Source: Flavobacterium hercynium (GTDB lineage: Bacteria > Bacteroidota > Bacteroidia > Flavobacteriales > Flavobacteriaceae). From it: a stretch of 64,000 nucleotides of DNA. The position numbers and the translations under genes are program-made. Location of the stretch: assembly GCF_002217285.1 (NCBI RefSeq), contig NZ_MUGW01000017.1:236606-300605 (forward strand), written 5' to 3'. The notes beneath the pieces are model-generated. The model was not told the origin of the DNA, made no database searches, and was given only the letters and a program-made list of their open reading frames with translations. The first letter of the stretch is position 1. Each line of letters opens with the position of its first letter. Below, piece after piece: positions 41,125-58,317 of the stretch.

Positions 41125-41155
41125 AAAAAGGCTAAAGGAGAGTTTCTGCTTTAGC
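41125..41155 (-). terminator. Terminator-like hairpin in the metK leader
   Basis: On the minus strand GCTAAAG (plus 41149-41155) and CTTTAGC (plus 41131-41137) form a 7-bp stem directly followed by a run of T. It lies 50 nt before the metK ATG. Two further hairpins lie upstream (41167-41185 and 41188-41214), the latter with a perfect 9-bp stem, TTCATAATG/CATTATGAA. Attenuation by premature termination is plausible; the S-box consensus is not present. Confidence 0.5.
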
Positions 41156-41255
41156 ATTTTTTACTACTGAAATCAAATTTCTCAGTATTCATAATGAAGG
41201 TAGTCCATTATGAAGAGGTTGCAATCAGTTCAAATTTTTCCTCCGTATTCGCGTG

Positions 41256-41430: not shown

Positions 41431-41496
41431 ATGAAATTAACAGTATGTATGATGTCTTGTAAGATGCCGGAGCTTTCCGCAGAGACGCTATTGTAG
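41431..41496 (+). CDS. Leader peptide 1 (Met/Cys-rich), upstream of TonB receptor
   Basis: This is a 21-codon frame in a short transcript leader. Residues 5-13 are VCMMSCKMP, so five of nine codons around here are Cys or Met (Cys6, Met7, Met8, Cys10, Met12). It is followed 25 nt later by a strong terminator (41521-41550). The sequence GCAGAG within its last codons (41479-41484) is identical to the 3' arm of that terminator and can pair with its 5' arm (41524-41529). A ribosome waiting at the Cys/Met codons would leave this segment free to form the antiterminator; one that reaches the stop codon would cover it and let the terminator form. The role is inferred from this layout and from two similar leaders at 44727 and 48003. 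Confidence 0.7.
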   Translation: MKLTVCMMSCKMPELSAETLL

Positions 41497-41520
41497 TTTT
41501 TTTTTCAAACATATATATAG

Positions 41521-41550
41521 AACCTCTGCTAACCGCAGAGGTTTTTTTTA
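41521..41550 (+). terminator. Attenuator terminator in front of the TonB receptor
   Basis: AACCTCTGC (41521-41529) pairs perfectly with GCAGAGGTT (41535-41543), loop TAACC, then a run of T. It stands between leader peptide 1 and the receptor start at 41614, so it can control read-through into the receptor. Confidence 0.85.
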
Positions 41551-44580: not shown

Positions 44581-44656
44581 ATGTGTCAAGATTATAGGGT
44601 TTAAAAGAGTCTACAAGCTTTTTATAATCTTTTAAATGTTAAATATTAATTTTTGT

Positions 44657-44688
44657 TTTGGTAGTTAAATAAATACTTATTATATTTA
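44657..44688 (+). promoter_or_regulatory. Candidate promoter of the leader 2 / metY transcript
   Basis: TTTG (44657-44660), 20 nt, then TATATTTA (44681-44688), one base off the -7 consensus. It lies 39 nt before the leader ATG. Confidence 0.45.
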
Positions 44689-44726: not shown

Positions 44727-44813
44727 ATGAACGCAATAGCAAACAAAATGATGATATGTTGTATAATGCCAAAGTGCATCCCACATTTGCTATTGCCAAA
44801 AGTAGAAGAGTAG
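44727..44813 (+). CDS. Leader peptide 2 (Met/Cys-rich), upstream of metY
   Basis: This is a 28-codon frame. Residues 8-17 are MMICCIMPKC: Met8, Met9, Cys11, Cys12, Met14 and Cys17, three Met and three Cys in ten codons. The end of the frame contains CCAAAAG (44796-44802), which can pair with CTTTTGG (44846-44852), the 5' arm of the terminator that follows the stop codon by 27 nt. The segment lies 19 nt after the last Cys codon and 9 nt before the stop, as needed for ribosome-controlled attenuation. It is too short for usual gene finders. The function is inferred from the layout and its likeness to leaders 1 and 3; MP(K) after the Met/Cys cluster is shared with leader 1. Confidence 0.75.
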   Translation: MNAIANKMMICCIMPKCIPHLLLPKVEE

Positions 44814-44840
44814 ATCTTTGTTATAGAGTTAACAACTATT

Positions 44841-44877
44841 AAGCCCTTTTGGTAGCCATCCGAAAGGGCTTTTTTTA
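44841..44877 (+). terminator. Attenuator terminator in front of the metY unit
   Basis: AAGCCCTTTTGG (44841-44852) pairs with CCGAAAGGGCTT (44860-44871), one wobble, followed by T. Its 5' arm and loop start (CCCTTTTGGTA) are the same as in the terminator at 48137, which points to common origin. Confidence 0.85.
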
Positions 44878-44900
44878 TTTCGTAACCTAATATAACAATC

Positions 44901-45080
44901 ATGTCGACTTTAATTAAAAATACAGAAACGATTCAATCTCTAAAAATAGATACAGAAAACATTTTTAACCACGAAGAAGGTGAAAAAGAAGGAGTAGCAA
45001 GAGAGGTAATTTTTAGAAGAGAATCAAACTCAATACTATTTCAAATGTATGCAGACGAAGAGGAAGATTTTTTTATATAA
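44901..45080 (+). CDS. Small acidic protein of unknown function, metY unit
   Basis: This is a 59-codon frame from ATG (MSTLIKNTETIQSLKIDTEN) to TAA, placed between the attenuator terminator and metY (57 nt before metY). The last 19 residues, ESNSILFQMYADEEEDFFI, align without gaps to AANSLLFLMYSKENETLFI, the end of the 66-residue product at 48252 (10 of 19 identical). I recognise no known family. A role in regulating or assembling the sulfur pathway is possible but only inferred from its position. It has no signal peptide and no membrane segment. Confidence 0.75.
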   Translation: MSTLIKNTETIQSLKIDTENIFNHEEGEKEGVAREVIFRRESNSILFQMYADEEEDFFI

Positions 45081-45137: not shown

Positions 45138-46442
45138 ATGAGTACACAAAAATTTGCAACCAACGCCCTTCATGCCGGACACGATGTAACTAAAAACGGA
45201 AGCACCAGAGCTGTGCCTATTTACCAAACATCATCTTATGTATTTAATGACTCAGATCATGCTGCTAATTTATTTGGTCTTGCTGAATCAGGATTTATCT
45301 ACACACGATTAAATAACCCAACAAATGATGTTCTGGAACAGCGATTGGCAGCTTTAGAAGGCGGAATTGCAGCAGTAGTGACAGCGTCAGGTGCATCAGC
45401 AATTGCAACTACATTTCTAACGTTATTAAAAACAGGAGATCATATTGTAGCCTCTAACAGTTTGTACGGAGGAACGTATAACCTGCTAAAAGTAACATTG
45501 CCAAGATTAGGTATTACAACAACTTTTGTAGATCCTTCACAACCGGAAAACTTCACAAAAGCAGCAAAAGAAAATACAAGAGCCTTTTTTGCAGAATCAT
45601 TAGGGAATCCAAAACTAGATGTATTGGATCTGAAAGCTATTGCTTCGGAAGCTCAAAAATTTAAAGTGCCGTTTATTGTAGACAATACAGTAGCTACTCC
45701 TTATTTACTAAAACCAATTGAATACGGCGCTAACATAGTAATTCATTCCTTAACCAAATATATATCAGGTAACGGAACTTCATTAGGAGGCGTTATTATC
45801 GACGCCGGAACTTTTGACTGGTCTAACGGAAAATTTCCTGAATTTACAGAACCATCTGCCGGATATCACGGATTGGTATATCATGAAGCGTTAGGAAATG
45901 CAGCATTTATAGCAAAAGCGAGAATTGAAGGACTACGTGATTTTGGTTCAGCTTTAAGTCCGTTTAATGCTTTTCAGATTATTCAGGGATTAGAAACATT
46001 ACCAATTCGTATCAAGAAGCACAGCGAAAATGCTTTGGCTTTAGCAGAATGGTTAGAAAAACAAGATAAGGTAGTCTGGGTAAATTACCCGGGGTTAAAA
46101 TCAAATAAATATTATGATTTAGCGAAAGAATATTTGCCGGAAGGACAAAGTGGAGTAATCACCTTTGGTTTAAAAGGAGGCTTTGATGCAGCAAAAAAAG
46201 TAGTCGATCAGACAAAACTATTTTCGCTCTTAGCAAACATTGGAGATACAAAATCGCTAATTATCCATCCGGCAAGCACAACACACCAACAGCTTACAGA
46301 TGAGGAGCAAATCGAAACGGGTGTTTCAAAAGATTTGGTTAGACTTTCTGTAGGTATTGAGGATATTGAAGACTTAATTGCTGATTTGCAAACCGTTTTT
46401 ACAAACGTAACGCAGTCACAATATAGTACCAATAAAAATTAA
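45138..46442 (+). CDS. metY: O-acetylhomoserine sulfhydrylase (MetY)
   Basis: This 434-residue PLP enzyme joins sulfide to O-acetylhomoserine, giving homocysteine. It has the long form of the Cys/Met-metabolism fold: FATNALHAGHDVTKNGSTRA at the N-terminus, QTSSYVFND, IYTRLNNPTNDVLEQRLAAL, and the PLP lysine in IHSLTKYISGNGTSLGG (about residue 208). The C-terminal SLIIHPASTTHQQLTDEEQ is typical. The length and the TRLNNPTND pattern favour MetY over cystathionine gamma-synthase. It lies downstream of leader 2 and a small gene, in line with control by sulfur amino acids. Sulfide would come from the cys genes at 57-64 kb. Confidence 0.93.
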   Translation: MSTQKFATNALHAGHDVTKNGSTRAVPIYQTSSYVFNDSDHAANLFGLAESGFIYTRLNNPTNDVLEQRLAALEGGIAAVVTASGASAIATTFLTLLKTGDHIVASNSLYGGTYNLLKVTLPRLGITTTFVDPSQPENFTKAAKENTRAFFAESLGNPKLDVLDLKAIASEAQKFKVPFIVDNTVATPYLLKPIEYGANIVIHSLTKYISGNGTSLGGVIIDAGTFDWSNGKFPEFTEPSAGYHGLVYHEALGNAAFIAKARIEGLRDFGSALSPFNAFQIIQGLETLPIRIKKHSENALALAEWLEKQDKVVWVNYPGLKSNKYYDLAKEYLPEGQSGVITFGLKGGFDAAKKVVDQTKLFSLLANIGDTKSLIIHPASTTHQQLTDEEQIETGVSKDLVRLSVGIEDIEDLIADLQTVFTNVTQSQYSTNKN

Positions 46443-48002: not shown

Positions 48003-48101
48003 ATGAAACAATTTTATAAAATAACAAATAAATCGCAGGCAAAGTCCCTTCAGATGAACAAGATGTTCACTGTCGCATCTATTTGCGTATACGTCTGCTG
48101 A
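48003..48101 (+). CDS. Leader peptide 3 (Met/Cys codons), upstream of the metX block
   Basis: The frame from ATG at 48003 gives 32 codons; an in-frame ATG at 48054 gives a 15-residue peptide, MNKMFTVASICVYVC, with Cys at positions 11 and 15, the last just before the stop. CCAAAAG lies 2 nt after the stop codon (48104-48110) and can pair with CTTTTGG (48142-48148) in the following terminator. Stalling at the first of the two Cys codons would leave the segment free; a ribosome at the stop codon would cover it. It has fewer Met/Cys codons than leaders 1 and 2, and which start is used is not known. The same terminator motif as in leader 2 supports the assignment. Confidence 0.6.
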   Translation: MKQFYKITNKSQAKSLQMNKMFTVASICVYVC

Positions 48102-48136
48102 TTCCAAAAGAATTTTTAAAGTTTACAATAAAACTT

Positions 48137-48175
48137 AAACCCTTTTGGTATATCGATCCAAAAGGGTTTTTTTAT
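48137..48175 (+). terminator. Attenuator terminator in front of the small gene and metX block
   Basis: AAACCCTTTTGG (48137-48148) pairs perfectly with CCAAAAGGGTTT (48158-48169), followed by a T tract. It shares CCCTTTTGGTA with the terminator at 44841. Confidence 0.85.
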
Positions 48176-48251
48176 TTTTTTGGATCAAGCTAAACATCAA
48201 AAATAAACGAAGAATAAAAATAATACAGAAACGAACTAAAACTTAAATATC

Positions 48252-48452
48252 ATGAGCGCAACAAACATCTTTACAAGAGCATTTTCTAAATTGAAAAACA
48301 AAGGGACAAAAGCAAACAACCCACCACCAACAAATGAATTAGCACATCCAAGTTTCGGAATCAACGAGACAGAAAAAAATACAGCGATAAAAGCAGCAAA
48401 TTCATTATTGTTTTTGATGTATTCAAAAGAGAATGAAACACTTTTTATCTAA
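48252..48452 (+). CDS. Small protein of unknown function, metX unit
   Basis: This is a 66-codon frame (MSATNIFTRAFSKLKNKGTK) after the third attenuator. Its C-terminal ANSLLFLMYSKENETLFI is related to the 59-residue product at 44901 (10 of 19 identical at the end, no gaps). The N-terminal half is basic and differs from the acidic paralogue. It has no signal peptide, and I recognise no domain. It is followed by 200 nt and then the S-box riboswitch, so it can be transcribed without metX when SAM is high. The repeated position, downstream of a Met/Cys attenuator, suggests a function in sulfur amino-acid metabolism. Confidence 0.75.
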   Translation: MSATNIFTRAFSKLKNKGTKANNPPPTNELAHPSFGINETEKNTAIKAANSLLFLMYSKENETLFI

Positions 48453-48592
48453 ATTGAAAAGTATCGCAAAATAGGTTGCAAACCTGCTTAATTTTACTGG
48501 GCTTCTAGTTCGGTAAATTTTTGCGTATAATAGTTTTTAGTAGTTTTCGTTTGAATTATATTTAAGAAATTGAACAATCAGGTTCGATAAAA

Positions 48593-48624
48593 TTTGTTTG
48601 TTTAAGAAAATAGTAGTTTATTTG
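48593..48624 (+). promoter_or_regulatory. Candidate promoter of the riboswitch-metX transcript
   Basis: TTTG (48593-48596), 20 nt, then TTTATTTG (48617-48624), one base off the -7 consensus, followed by C. Transcription would start about 25 nt before the riboswitch. Confidence 0.5.
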
Positions 48625-48653
48625 CACCATTAAGTTCAAAAACGTATTGAAAT

Positions 48654-48758
48654 GTTATAAAGAAAGGACGAGGGATTAGACCCGATGAATCCTTAGCAAC
48701 CCTTCGTTAATTCGAAGAAGGTGCTGCATTCTACCACGCCCAAACGTGGAAAGATAAC
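48654..48758 (+). ncRNA. S-box (SAM-I type) riboswitch before metX-thrA
   Basis: The conserved S-box elements occur in order: AGGGATTAGACCCGATGAAT, CCTTAGCAACCC, AAGGTGCTGCATTCTACC, then GGAAAGATAACA. Closing stem P1 is GTTAT (48654-48658) with ATAAC (48754-48758). The small P3 hairpin (TTCGTTAATTCGAAGAAGGTGC region) and P4 (CCACGCCCAAACGTGG) are visible. It binds S-adenosylmethionine and usually turns expression down. The expression platform (48759-48832) contains TCTAG/CTAGA, a weak hairpin followed by a CTTTCTTTTT tract, which may serve as the terminator. It fits SAM repression of the metX-thrA genes. Confidence 0.92.
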
Positions 48759-48832
48759 AACAAGAATTTTTCTAGTTTCGTTCTAGACTTTCTTTTTAAT
48801 ATTTCCAGATACAAATCAATAATACAATAGAT

Positions 48833-49822
48833 TTGAAATTGGAAAATATACCAAACCCTTTAATCATACAAAATTTCACCACAGAAAATGGTGCACTTTA
48901 TCATTCGTTACCTTTAAGCTTTGCTGTCTTTGGTTTACCATTGCACAGCGCACCAATTGTTTTGGTCAATCATGCTTTAACGGGTAATGCTGAGGTTGCA
49001 GGTGAAAATGGTTGGTGGAATGACTTAATTGGAGACAACAAAACAATAGATACAGATAAGTTTACTGTGTTGTCATTTAATGTCCCGGGAAATGGACATG
49101 ATGCTTTCATTATCGAAAATTACCAGAATTTTACCACTCGCGATATCGCCAGAATTTTTCTTAAAGGACTTGATCTTTTAGATATTACAAATCTGCACAC
49201 CATTATTGGAGGTTCTGTAGGTGGTGGAGTGGCTTGGGAAATGCTGGCATTAGCACCAAACAGTACTCAAAATTTAATTCCTATAGCAACAGACTGGAAA
49301 TCGACCGACTGGATGATTGCAAATTGCTATCTGCAAGAGCAAATACTCAATAATTCATCAAAACCGGTAGAAGATGCCAGAATCCATGCGATGTTGTGTT
49401 ATAGATCTCCGGAATCATTCAAAGAGAAATTTCAGCGCACCTTAAACGAAAATCTTTCCATTTTTAATATCGAAAGCTGGCTGGCACATCATGGCAAAAA
49501 ATTGCAGCAAAGATATCAGCTGTCTTCGTACAGACTAATGAATCAGTTGCTTAAAACCATTGATATTACCAGAAATAGCGAAGATTTCGAAACGTTACTA
49601 TCAAGAACAAACGCCACAATTCATATTATCGGAATCAATTCAGATTTGTTTTTTACAGCAAAAGAGAATAAAGAAACGTATCAGGAACTCAAGAAGTTCA
49701 AACACAATGTTTTTTACAGCGAAATAGACTCCATTCACGGACACGACGCTTTTTTAATAGAGTACAAACAATTAGATCAATTACTTGCCGATATTTTTAA
49801 GGCAGAAACAATAGCAAAATAA
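48833..49822 (+). CDS. metX: Homoserine O-acetyltransferase (MetX-like)
   Basis: This 329-residue alpha/beta-hydrolase fold enzyme acetylates homoserine for methionine synthesis. The nucleophile elbow is IIGGSVGGGVAWEM (Ser128, in place of the usual GGSMGG), and the C-terminal HGHDAFLIE supplies the catalytic His. LVNHALTGNAEVAG and SFNVPGNGHDAF are the usual N-terminal motifs. The start codon is TTG (48833), as no ATG lies in a suitable place; translation from TTG after the riboswitch may limit expression. It ends 1 nt before thrA. The enzyme is shorter than typical MetX (about 350-380), but all catalytic parts are present. Confidence 0.9.
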   Translation: MKLENIPNPLIIQNFTTENGALYHSLPLSFAVFGLPLHSAPIVLVNHALTGNAEVAGENGWWNDLIGDNKTIDTDKFTVLSFNVPGNGHDAFIIENYQNFTTRDIARIFLKGLDLLDITNLHTIIGGSVGGGVAWEMLALAPNSTQNLIPIATDWKSTDWMIANCYLQEQILNNSSKPVEDARIHAMLCYRSPESFKEKFQRTLNENLSIFNIESWLAHHGKKLQQRYQLSSYRLMNQLLKTIDITRNSEDFETLLSRTNATIHIIGINSDLFFTAKENKETYQELKKFKHNVFYSEIDSIHGHDAFLIEYKQLDQLLADIFKAETIAK

Positions 49823-57360: not shown

Positions 57361-58317
57361 ATGGATTTTAAAAACAAGAAAAAACATAGCAATATGGAGA
57401 AGGAATTGAAACTGAATAATTCTGGTGATAAAGCGGATACATCAATAAAAGAGAAATTATGGATAGCAATACCCGCTACCTTATTAATTGGTTTGTTGTT
57501 TATATTGATTTACAGACATCATGCAGAATTTTCCTGGGACGGACTTGCAAGTGGTTTCAATCAGGAGTTTTTAGTTTTTTTCTTAATTGGAGTTTTTGCA
57601 CAATTAGTAGATGGAACATTGGGAATGGGTTACGGTGCAACTTCGACCTCTTTTTTATTAGCATACGGAGTTCCACCCGTTATTAGCAGTACAGGAGTTC
57701 ACGTTGCAGAAATGTTTACAACAGGAGCATCGGCAATATCGCATCATCGATTTGGAAATATTAATAAAAAGCTCGTAAAGCATTTATTAATTCCGGGAGT
57801 TTTAGGCTCATTTACAGGAGCTTATTTATTGTCGGATGTTATTGACGGAGAGAAGATAAAGCCTTTTATAGCAATCTATATGATTATTTTGGCTTGTATA
57901 ATTATCAAAAAAGCTTTGGCCAAAACGATTATAAAAAAGAAAACTAAAAAATTAGGGATTCTGGCTGGTTTTGGTGGTTTTATGGATTCTGTTGGCGGTG
58001 GAGGCTGGGGACCAATTGTAACATCAACCTTATTAGGAAGAGGAAGAAATCCACGTTACACGATTGGCTCAGTAAATGCAGCAGAGTTTGCAGTTTCATT
58101 TGCAAGCGGAATCACCTTCATGTATTTTGGAGGAATAGAAGGATGGCAAATTATAGCAGGATTGATTTTAGGAGGTGTAATGGCAGCTCCATTAGCAGCT
58201 TTTCTGGTAAATAAAATAAAGAGAAAACCAATGATGGTGGCGGTTGGAATTTTAATTATCATTTTGAGTTTGAAAACATTATCAAGAGGATTTGAGACAC
58301 TTTCAAGCTTTTTTTAA
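57361..58317 (+). CDS. TauE/SafE family sulfite/sulfonate permease
   Basis: This membrane protein (318 residues from 57361; 307 if MEKELKLNN at 57394 is used) has eight helices in two repeats. Motifs: DGTLGMGYGATSTSFLLAYG (about residues 82-101), STGVHVAEMFTTGASAISHH, GFGGFMDSVGGGGWGPIVTS and GSVNAAEFAVSFASGITFM. TauE/SafE members export sulfite, sulfoacetate or take up sulfate-like anions. Being the first gene before cysH, cysD, cysN and the sulfite reductase, it probably moves sulfate or sulfite; the direction is not known. The N-terminal 20 residues are Lys-rich and precede the first helix. Confidence 0.88.
   Translation: MDFKNKKKHSNMEKELKLNNSGDKADTSIKEKLWIAIPATLLIGLLFILIYRHHAEFSWDGLASGFNQEFLVFFLIGVFAQLVDGTLGMGYGATSTSFLLAYGVPPVISSTGVHVAEMFTTGASAISHHRFGNINKKLVKHLLIPGVLGSFTGAYLLSDVIDGEKIKPFIAIYMIILACIIIKKALAKTIIKKKTKKLGILAGFGGFMDSVGGGGWGPIVTSTLLGRGRNPRYTIGSVNAAEFAVSFASGITFMYFGGIEGWQIIAGLILGGVMAAPLAAFLVNKIKRKPMMVAVGILIIILSLKTLSRGFETLSSFF

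Follow-up and report, generated by a model that had tools for sequence, protein, structure and literature searches.

A putative leader-peptide attenuator rich in methionine and cysteine codons precedes metY in Flavobacterium

In Flavobacterium, metY is preceded by a short leader frame dense in methionine and cysteine codons. This leader is very probably part of a ribosome-mediated transcription attenuator that reads the charging of Met- and Cys-tRNA, however the untranslated leader behaves. The proposal is founded on sequence comparison, that is, on the kept Met/Cys codons, a hairpin, a terminator, and a CCAAAAG segment that competes for the 5' arm of this terminator. The response to methionine and cysteine is inferred, with no wet-lab, expression, ribosome-profiling or mutant data.

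The window is the whole 64,000-nucleotide stretch of Flavobacterium hercynium DNA that was analysed, and its relevant features are collected in Table 1. The initial annotation had described a 28-codon frame with the MMICCIMPKC block (three Met, three Cys), a strong terminator after it, and a CCAAAAG segment, 19 nt beyond the last Cys codon, that can pair with the 5' arm of the terminator. Each of these elements was recovered. The last Cys codon is at 44775-44777 and CCAAAAG, at 44796-44802, ends 8 nt before the stop codon and is complementary to CTTTTGG at 44846-44852. The terminator, AAGCCCTTTTGG-TAGCCAT-CCGAAAGGGCTT at 44841-44871, is followed by a T run. A further element, the upstream hairpin formed by 44733-44743 and 44786-44796, was absent from that annotation. 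Frames of this composition are rare: at least five Met+Cys per ten codons are found in only 3 of the 376 frames in the 64 kb that start with ATG and span 15-45 codons, namely the metY leader, a sister leader at 41431, and a minus-strand frame at 57658-57783. Upstream of the leader, the TTTTGG/TATATTTA pair resembles the Bacteroidota -33/-7 promoter; of 14 other loci inspected, 8 have a similar -7 stretch ahead of the leader. The attenuator had also been placed before metY. It is indeed upstream of this gene, but a 59-codon frame intervenes. No Pfam or NCBIfam family matched this frame, which is detectable by sequence in 4 of 150 genomes of the genus (own included); frames of comparable size occur at this place in 9 related loci inspected. 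Because the small protein evolves too fast, metY itself was taken as the search key.

Table 1. Features of the window at and around the metY attenuator (leader translation and promoter function are inferred).
Feature	Position	Strand	Remarks
Sister attenuator, type 1	41431..41550	+	leader MKLTVCMMSCKMPELSAETLL 41431-41496; antiterminator GCAGAG 41479-41484; terminator 41519-41545; before TonB-dependent receptor gene (41614)
Promoter-like pair	44656..44688	+	TTTTGG 44656-44661 and TATATTTA 44681-44688, spacing 19 nt; read from sequence
Leader peptide frame	44727..44813	+	MNAIANKMMICCIMPKCIPHLLLPKVEE; 28 codons, ATG 44727, TAG 44813
Segment 1, upstream hairpin 5' arm	44733..44743	+	partner 44786-44796
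Control codons MMICCIMPKC	44748..44777	+	codons 8-17, Met x3 and Cys x3; codon block kept in relatives
Upstream hairpin 3' arm	44786..44796	+	one base common with antiterminator core CCAAAAG
Segment 2, antiterminator strand	44793..44802	+	TTGCCAAAAG, core CCAAAAG 44796-44802; pairs with segment 3
Segment 3, terminator 5' arm and first loop bases	44841..44855	+	arm AAGCCCTTTTGG; CTTTTGG 44846-44852 common to terminator and antiterminator
Segment 4, terminator 3' arm and T run	44860..44878	+	arm CCGAAAGGGCTT 44860-44871; pairs with segment 3
59-codon frame of unknown function	44901..45080	+	no family; between attenuator and metY
metY-like gene	45138..46442	+	O-acetylhomoserine aminocarboxypropyltransferase/cysteine synthase subfamily; TIGR01326 645.5 bits (cut-off 495.1)
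Type 3 attenuator	48003..48169	+	leader MKQFYKITNKSQAKSLQMNKMFTVASICVYVC 48003-48101; CCAAAAG 48104-48110; terminator 48137-48169; upstream of metX-like gene
metX-like gene	start 48833	+	TIGR01392 189.7 bits, below cut-off 500

Of 556 confirmed metY loci, the best 80 were used to follow conservation. A CTTTTGG terminator with a Met/Cys leader, called type 2, was found in 77 of these 80, and the sister form with GCAGAG and CCTCTGC, called type 1, at most 5 kb upstream in 72. Both types are present in 69 loci, type 2 alone in 8 and type 1 alone in 3, and at least one Met/Cys leader with its terminator is present in all 80. In each locus the leader was defined as the frame that, among those closing near the terminator, had the highest Met+Cys content. 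Since this choice favours the result, a shuffle control is reported alongside: all 78 type 2 leaders, window included, have at least six Met+Cys in ten codons, vs none of 2000 base-shuffled leaders. Tandem Met codons are found in 78 of 78 leaders and tandem Cys codons in 76 (tail codons counted). Met and Cys make up 20.4% and 18.3% of leader residues, start Met excluded, vs 1.6% and 0.55% in the large frames of the window. In the F. psychrophilum locus (L051) the ATG frame begins later; aligned with the others, its start would be GTG. Two Flavobacterium-like metY loci (L066, L069) are carried by contigs labelled as a Bifidobacterium breve and a Nitrotoga MAG, which are probably mis-binned.

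The initial annotation had proposed that the leader frame and its pairing be compared across relatives and that compensatory changes be sought in CCAAAAG/CTTTTGG. Conservation passed this comparison, with both the Met/Cys block and the pairing kept. The compensatory changes did not appear: the type 2 antiterminator is paired in 94.9% of cells and shows 0 double changes in 76 distinct rows, because the pair is too conserved. Covariation is found in the other helices. The upstream hairpin is paired in 81.6% of cells, vs 18.9 to 55.2% for slid versions, with double changes at 9 pairs (4 of 500 shuffles as high) and in 59 cells (0 of 500). The terminator is paired in 99.6% of cells, and double changes occur in 35 cells, a count equalled in 0 of 500 shuffles; on pair count its support is weak, with 3 pairs altered on both sides, a number matched by 95 of 500 shuffles. 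These shuffle controls carry no correction for relatedness. For type 1, an alignment of 39 rows was used, made up of 28 of the 74 Flavobacterium leaders, chosen for diversity, and all 11 leaders from other genera. There, the antiterminator is paired in 93.6% of cells, with double changes at 2 pairs (17 of 500 shuffles) and in 7 cells (0 of 500), and the terminator in 99.4%, with 23 double-change cells (0 of 500). In two loci the three strands depart jointly from the usual sequence, as GCAAGG, CCTTG and CAAGG in L133 and as GCAGCGG, CCGCTGC and GCAGCGG in L093.

The position of the ribosome was then placed in a folding model, in which the pairing of the terminator 5' arm with upstream RNA was followed before segment 4 exists. 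For type 2 (n=78), the median falls from 0.78 with the ribosome early in the leader to 0.15 with the ribosome at the stop codon. It falls likewise from 0.70 to 0.08 for type 1 (n=74) and from 0.68 to 0.07 for the type 3 attenuators before metX-like genes (n=48). In type 2 leaders, 654 of 804 Met+Cys codons precede the point at which the ribosome starts to mask the antiterminator and 150 are behind it; the corresponding numbers are 351 and 45 for type 1, and 216 and 51 for type 3. As pairing falls at the stop codon and most Met+Cys codons precede this fall, the geometry is that of ribosome-mediated attenuation. The initial annotation had proposed this geometry together with a reading of Met- and Cys-tRNA, and the proposal is supported by conservation, by pairing and by pathway-matched codons before a few other genes. 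In 74 of 78 folds, segments 2 and 3 pair while segment 4 is still to be made; in the other four (L051, L055, L076, L079) this pairing does not exceed 0.5. In the full RNA at equilibrium, the terminator helix of segments 3 and 4 exceeds 0.5 in 76 of 78 even where segment 2 is left uncovered. Hence, antitermination must be kinetic.

The following sequence of events can be proposed. When methionine and cysteine are plentiful, the ribosome would pass the Met/Cys block, reach the stop codon and cover CCAAAAG. The terminator would then form and RNA polymerase would halt ahead of both the small frame and metY. If charged Met- or Cys-tRNA runs low, the ribosome would wait in the Met/Cys block and leave CCAAAAG free, which would pair with CTTTTGG once the latter is synthesised, allowing transcription to continue into metY. 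The upstream hairpin may pause RNA polymerase and let the ribosome catch up.

The trp, his, thr and leu attenuators of E. coli share with this device a short frame with relevant codons, an intrinsic terminator, and an antiterminator using the 5' arm of the terminator. The Flavobacterium device differs from them in that its codons are for Met and Cys, its hairpin abuts segment 2 and does not mask it, it often occurs as two in series, and it is found in Bacteroidota. As to membership of the attenuator class, a short frame rich in codons for the pathway product is present ahead of a pathway gene (its translation being inferred) and an intrinsic terminator is located between frame and gene, as far as can be read from sequence alone. 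An antiterminator that excludes the terminator is also present, with double changes only in the sister type. Release of the antiterminator by a stalled ribosome and its masking upon completion of the leader are met in the fold model only. Masking of segment 2 by the upstream hairpin, which defines the four-segment trp type, was not met by folding.

This last point bears on the main alternative, a classical four-segment attenuator as in E. coli trp, which is a sub-form of the same mechanism. There, the upstream hairpin protects segment 2 and an untranslated leader terminates. Such an arrangement seems unlikely here, although the upstream hairpin is conserved and covarying, since this hairpin and the antiterminator core have only one base in common. 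Folding without a ribosome points the same way. In the MG1655 sequences used as controls, pairing drops strongly when the ribosome is removed (no ribosome vs stalled: thr 0.35/0.82, trp 0.07/0.71, leu 0.25/0.60, his 0.37/0.64), whereas the medians barely move for type 2 (0.75/0.78), type 1 (0.64/0.70) and type 3 (0.68/0.68); folding at 25 C gives a similar outcome to 37 C. Some observations nevertheless favour the trp type. The free/stalled ratio is below 0.6 in 18 of 74 type 1 leaders at 37 C (15 of 74 at 25 C) and in 2 to 5 of 78 type 2 leaders, and the window's own leader gives 0.51 without ribosome vs 0.61 stalled. The controls themselves are not always clear-cut: with other 5' ends, the weakest contrast, that of E. 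coli thr with its end at the ATG, comes close (0.56 vs 0.82 at 37 C), and the measure is imperfect since E. coli his stays at 0.62 with the ribosome at the stop codon. Because a masking hairpin was not met in folding, the device is filed under leader-peptide attenuation generally and not under the four-segment trp type.

Because the upstream hairpin hardly masks the antiterminator, most untranslated leaders are predicted by the model to read through. Such behaviour would be fitting in a methionine sensor, as methionine starvation also lowers initiation. Indeed, leader attenuation by methionine is expected to be hard because methionine starvation also removes charged initiator tRNA, and the anatomy of the leader suggests a way round this problem. 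A broader hypothesis can be put forward only tentatively, and we hold it at somewhat less than even chance: a methionine attenuator whose default state is ON, in which either a lack of initiation (uncharged initiator Met-tRNA) or a stall at Met/Cys codons gives read-through and only a completed leader turns metY off, and which would be a wider Bacteroidota device, paired in series and exchanged with SAM-I in evolution. If true, the default-ON design would avoid the shutdown that a trp-type methionine attenuator would undergo under severe methionine starvation.

In other genera of the family, the place before metY is mostly held by another regulator. In a set of 120 genomes with a single representative per genus, the window genome among them, metY was detected at E 1e-100 in 77, and upstream regions were examined for 75 of the 76 from other genera (29 as loci, 46 fetched); two partial matches in G186 and a second copy in G167 (49% identity) were left out. 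The 75 loci carry a SAM-I riboswitch in 53 cases, a Met/Cys attenuator in 11, neither in 11, and both in none. Thus, SAM-I is found in 53 of 64 loci without the device vs 0 of 11 with it (Fisher p 1.4e-7, relatedness ignored). The loci with neither are L104 (short upstream), L134, L138, L140 (SAM-II instead), L143, L149, L151, L161, L164 (a weak Met/Cys frame, left uncounted), L167 and L169. In L090 the SAM-I riboswitch is placed downstream of metY. In Flavobacterium, a regular expression for the SAM-I core, with a recall of 49 of 53, had no match upstream of metY in the 80 loci (best 80 of 556). A metY tree of 43 rows gives 5 switches of the attenuator label, no fewer than 3 of which are forced by well-supported branches. 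The Flavobacterium Met/Cys leader appears to replace the riboswitch used by most relatives before metY. A repeated exchange between a SAM riboswitch and a sensor of tRNA charge, at one gene in one family, lets the merits of the two sensors be compared directly.

Met/Cys leaders are not limited to metY. With stricter filters, a type 2 model has matches in 136 of 199 Flavobacterium genomes, although its own source sequences may be included. The 18 model matches inspected comprise leaders before metY, metX-like, OsmC-like, homocysteine S-methyltransferase (metH-like) and PAPS-reductase (cysH-like) genes; of the 11 in-genus matches inspected, two (L194, L195) are without a convincing Met/Cys block. 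Across the phylum, model R1 matches 17 of 198 genomes, 10 of them of the same genus. The 7 other matches were inspected: L184 and L189 lie upstream of metY, no ATG leader was found in L184, which has the terminator, and no Met/Cys leader in L186, L187, L188 and L190. Met/Cys leaders with terminators are present in L189 (G336), before metY, and in L185 (G498), which belong to other families of the phylum. The codons follow the gene: Cys codons outnumber Met codons by 49 to 39 in the 14 leaders upstream of cysH-like genes, vs 12 Met and 1 Cys in two leaders before one metH-like gene (Fisher p 0.002, codons not being independent). The sampling is narrow. For cysH-like genes, Met/Cys leaders were found in L199 and in 7 of 30 loci inspected, the 7 nearest the query, and not in the other 23. 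In the genome of the window itself, the cysH-like gene (58.3 kb), which is outside these 30 loci, has no Met/Cys leader in the stretch read. For metH-like genes, only 1 of 30 loci has such a leader, that of the query's own genome, and the metH result is thus that of one genome. In L193, an OsmC-like gene is preceded by a leader in which Cys, Met and His codons occur and by a terminator of the CTTTTGG type. Met/Cys leaders offer a simple handle for annotating the Bacteroidota sulfur regulon.

What is kept differs along the leader. In the window, L005 and L050, one extra base turns a CCCQK-like tail into LLLPKVEE or LLLPKVKE, and the antiterminator-bearing RNA GCTATTGCCAAAAG is unchanged despite this frameshift. 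Similarly, CCGCAGAG of type 1 encodes SAE or PQR, depending on the row. As the reading frame of the tail varies over a constant RNA, the tail is kept as RNA and the front as Met/Cys codons. These observations weigh on another alternative, in which the leader peptide itself is the sensor, a Met/Cys peptide of metal- or redox-binding type that halts the ribosome. Metal binding is possible for peptides rich in Met and Cys, which lends this idea what support it has. It is nonetheless improbable, given that Met/Cys order and number vary among leaders with only density kept, that the tail is frame-shifted, that metH-like leaders lean to Met and cysH-like leaders to Cys, and that the device occupies the place of the relatives' SAM riboswitch.

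A riboswitch or T-box made of RNA only, with an incidental short frame, is more improbable still. The strong fold (z -5.15) and the presence of SAM-I at the same place in related loci could suggest it, but no Rfam family reaches its gathering score (best weak match 30.4 bits vs 49), and the kept Met/Cys codons would be left unexplained. In particular, the SAM-I and SAM-II models have no match at the leader and the T-box model has none anywhere in the window. T-box, riboswitch and metal-binding arrest peptide were thus rejected for want of an Rfam match, for the kept codons and for the varying peptide. Finally, one could suppose an unregulated, constitutive terminator between genes, with a Met/Cys frame there by chance. 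Only the absence of expression data favours this, and it is hardly credible against conservation in 80 of 80 loci (best 80 of 556 metY loci), serial copies and 0 of 2000 shuffles.

The ribosome-mediated Met/Cys attenuator can be set beside known systems. In the same position before metY, SAM-I (RF00162; 53 of 75 other-genus loci) differs in that the RNA senses SAM directly, and it was found before metY in none of the 11 other-genus loci with the device. Canestrari et al. are said to have described, in 2020, Cys-codon leader peptides of mycobacterial cys operons. Such leaders ahead of sulfur genes are documented in PMC1262725, whose authors found no conserved terminator hairpin; these leaders differ from the present device by this lack, by their occurrence in Actinobacteria and, in the passages available, by the absence of any mention of Met codons. 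In Rhodobacterales, uORFC-8-2 before cysS has two tandem Cys codons in an upstream frame and a terminator, and ribosome-mediated attenuation was proposed (PMC8632094). According to the part of that source available, it differs in having Cys codons only, in preceding a cysteinyl-tRNA synthetase gene and in belonging to Alphaproteobacteria, with no relation shown. In Bacteroidota, short frames reminiscent of leader peptides were noted in B. thetaiotaomicron in the portion of the study available (PMC7366714). For F. psychrophilum, of the same genus, the accessible part of the report mentions 'strong clues' that leader-peptide attenuation operates ahead of operons for amino-acid biosynthesis, and names structured 5' elements of pheA and hisG; methionine does not occur in its main text (0 occurrences), and that part gives neither codons nor a mechanism or distribution for met/cys genes (PMC9723704). 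The initial annotation knew of no described Cys/Met attenuator in Bacteroidota. This agrees with the open-licence papers, the only ones searched, in which neither a Met/Cys attenuator in Bacteroidota nor methionine control by leader-peptide attenuation was found; leader-peptide attenuation in general has already been noted in F. psychrophilum, as far as the available text of that report goes (PMC9723704). Within these limits, we regard the Met/Cys leader device as a new form of ribosome-mediated leader-peptide attenuation.

In the window genome, the attenuators are clustered. The pattern CCRAAAG-N20-50-CCTTTTGG-N3-12-CCRAAAGG has 2 matches in 5.26 Mb, before metY and the metX-like gene, vs 0 in the reversed control, and the type 1 pattern has a single match, the attenuator at 41431..41550. 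The three sites given by both patterns together, before the TonB receptor gene, metY and the metX-like gene, are all inside 7 kb. Among 70 sequences with both types, window included, the gap between terminator 1 and leader 2 is below 150 nt in 31, 150-1000 nt in 12, and above 1000 nt in 27, to which the window belongs; in long-gap loci a frame of about 949 codons separates the two types (in the window, the TonB receptor). In L016, L019 and L053 there is hardly room for a promoter, as the gap is only 35 nt. Upstream of the metX-like gene, the type 3 attenuator is followed by a small frame, a SAM-I riboswitch (48652-48760) and the gene at 48833. With the attenuator and SAM-I in series (48003-49822), this gene may respond to tRNA charge as well as to SAM. 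A SAM-II riboswitch (41141-41249, minus strand), which precedes metK, is found in the region that also contains SAM-I and the leader attenuators. A further leader type with a CCTCCCA terminator (e.g. MKFNVCNMSKKAIQVKSCRECV) is found directly 5' of the type 3 leader in L012 (about +2.9 kb from metY), L052 and L053 (about +2.7 to 2.8 kb). The small frames at 44901-45080 and 48252-48452, of unknown family, are each directly 3' of an attenuator and have similar C-terminal ends (FQMYADEEEDFFI, FLMYSKENETLFI).
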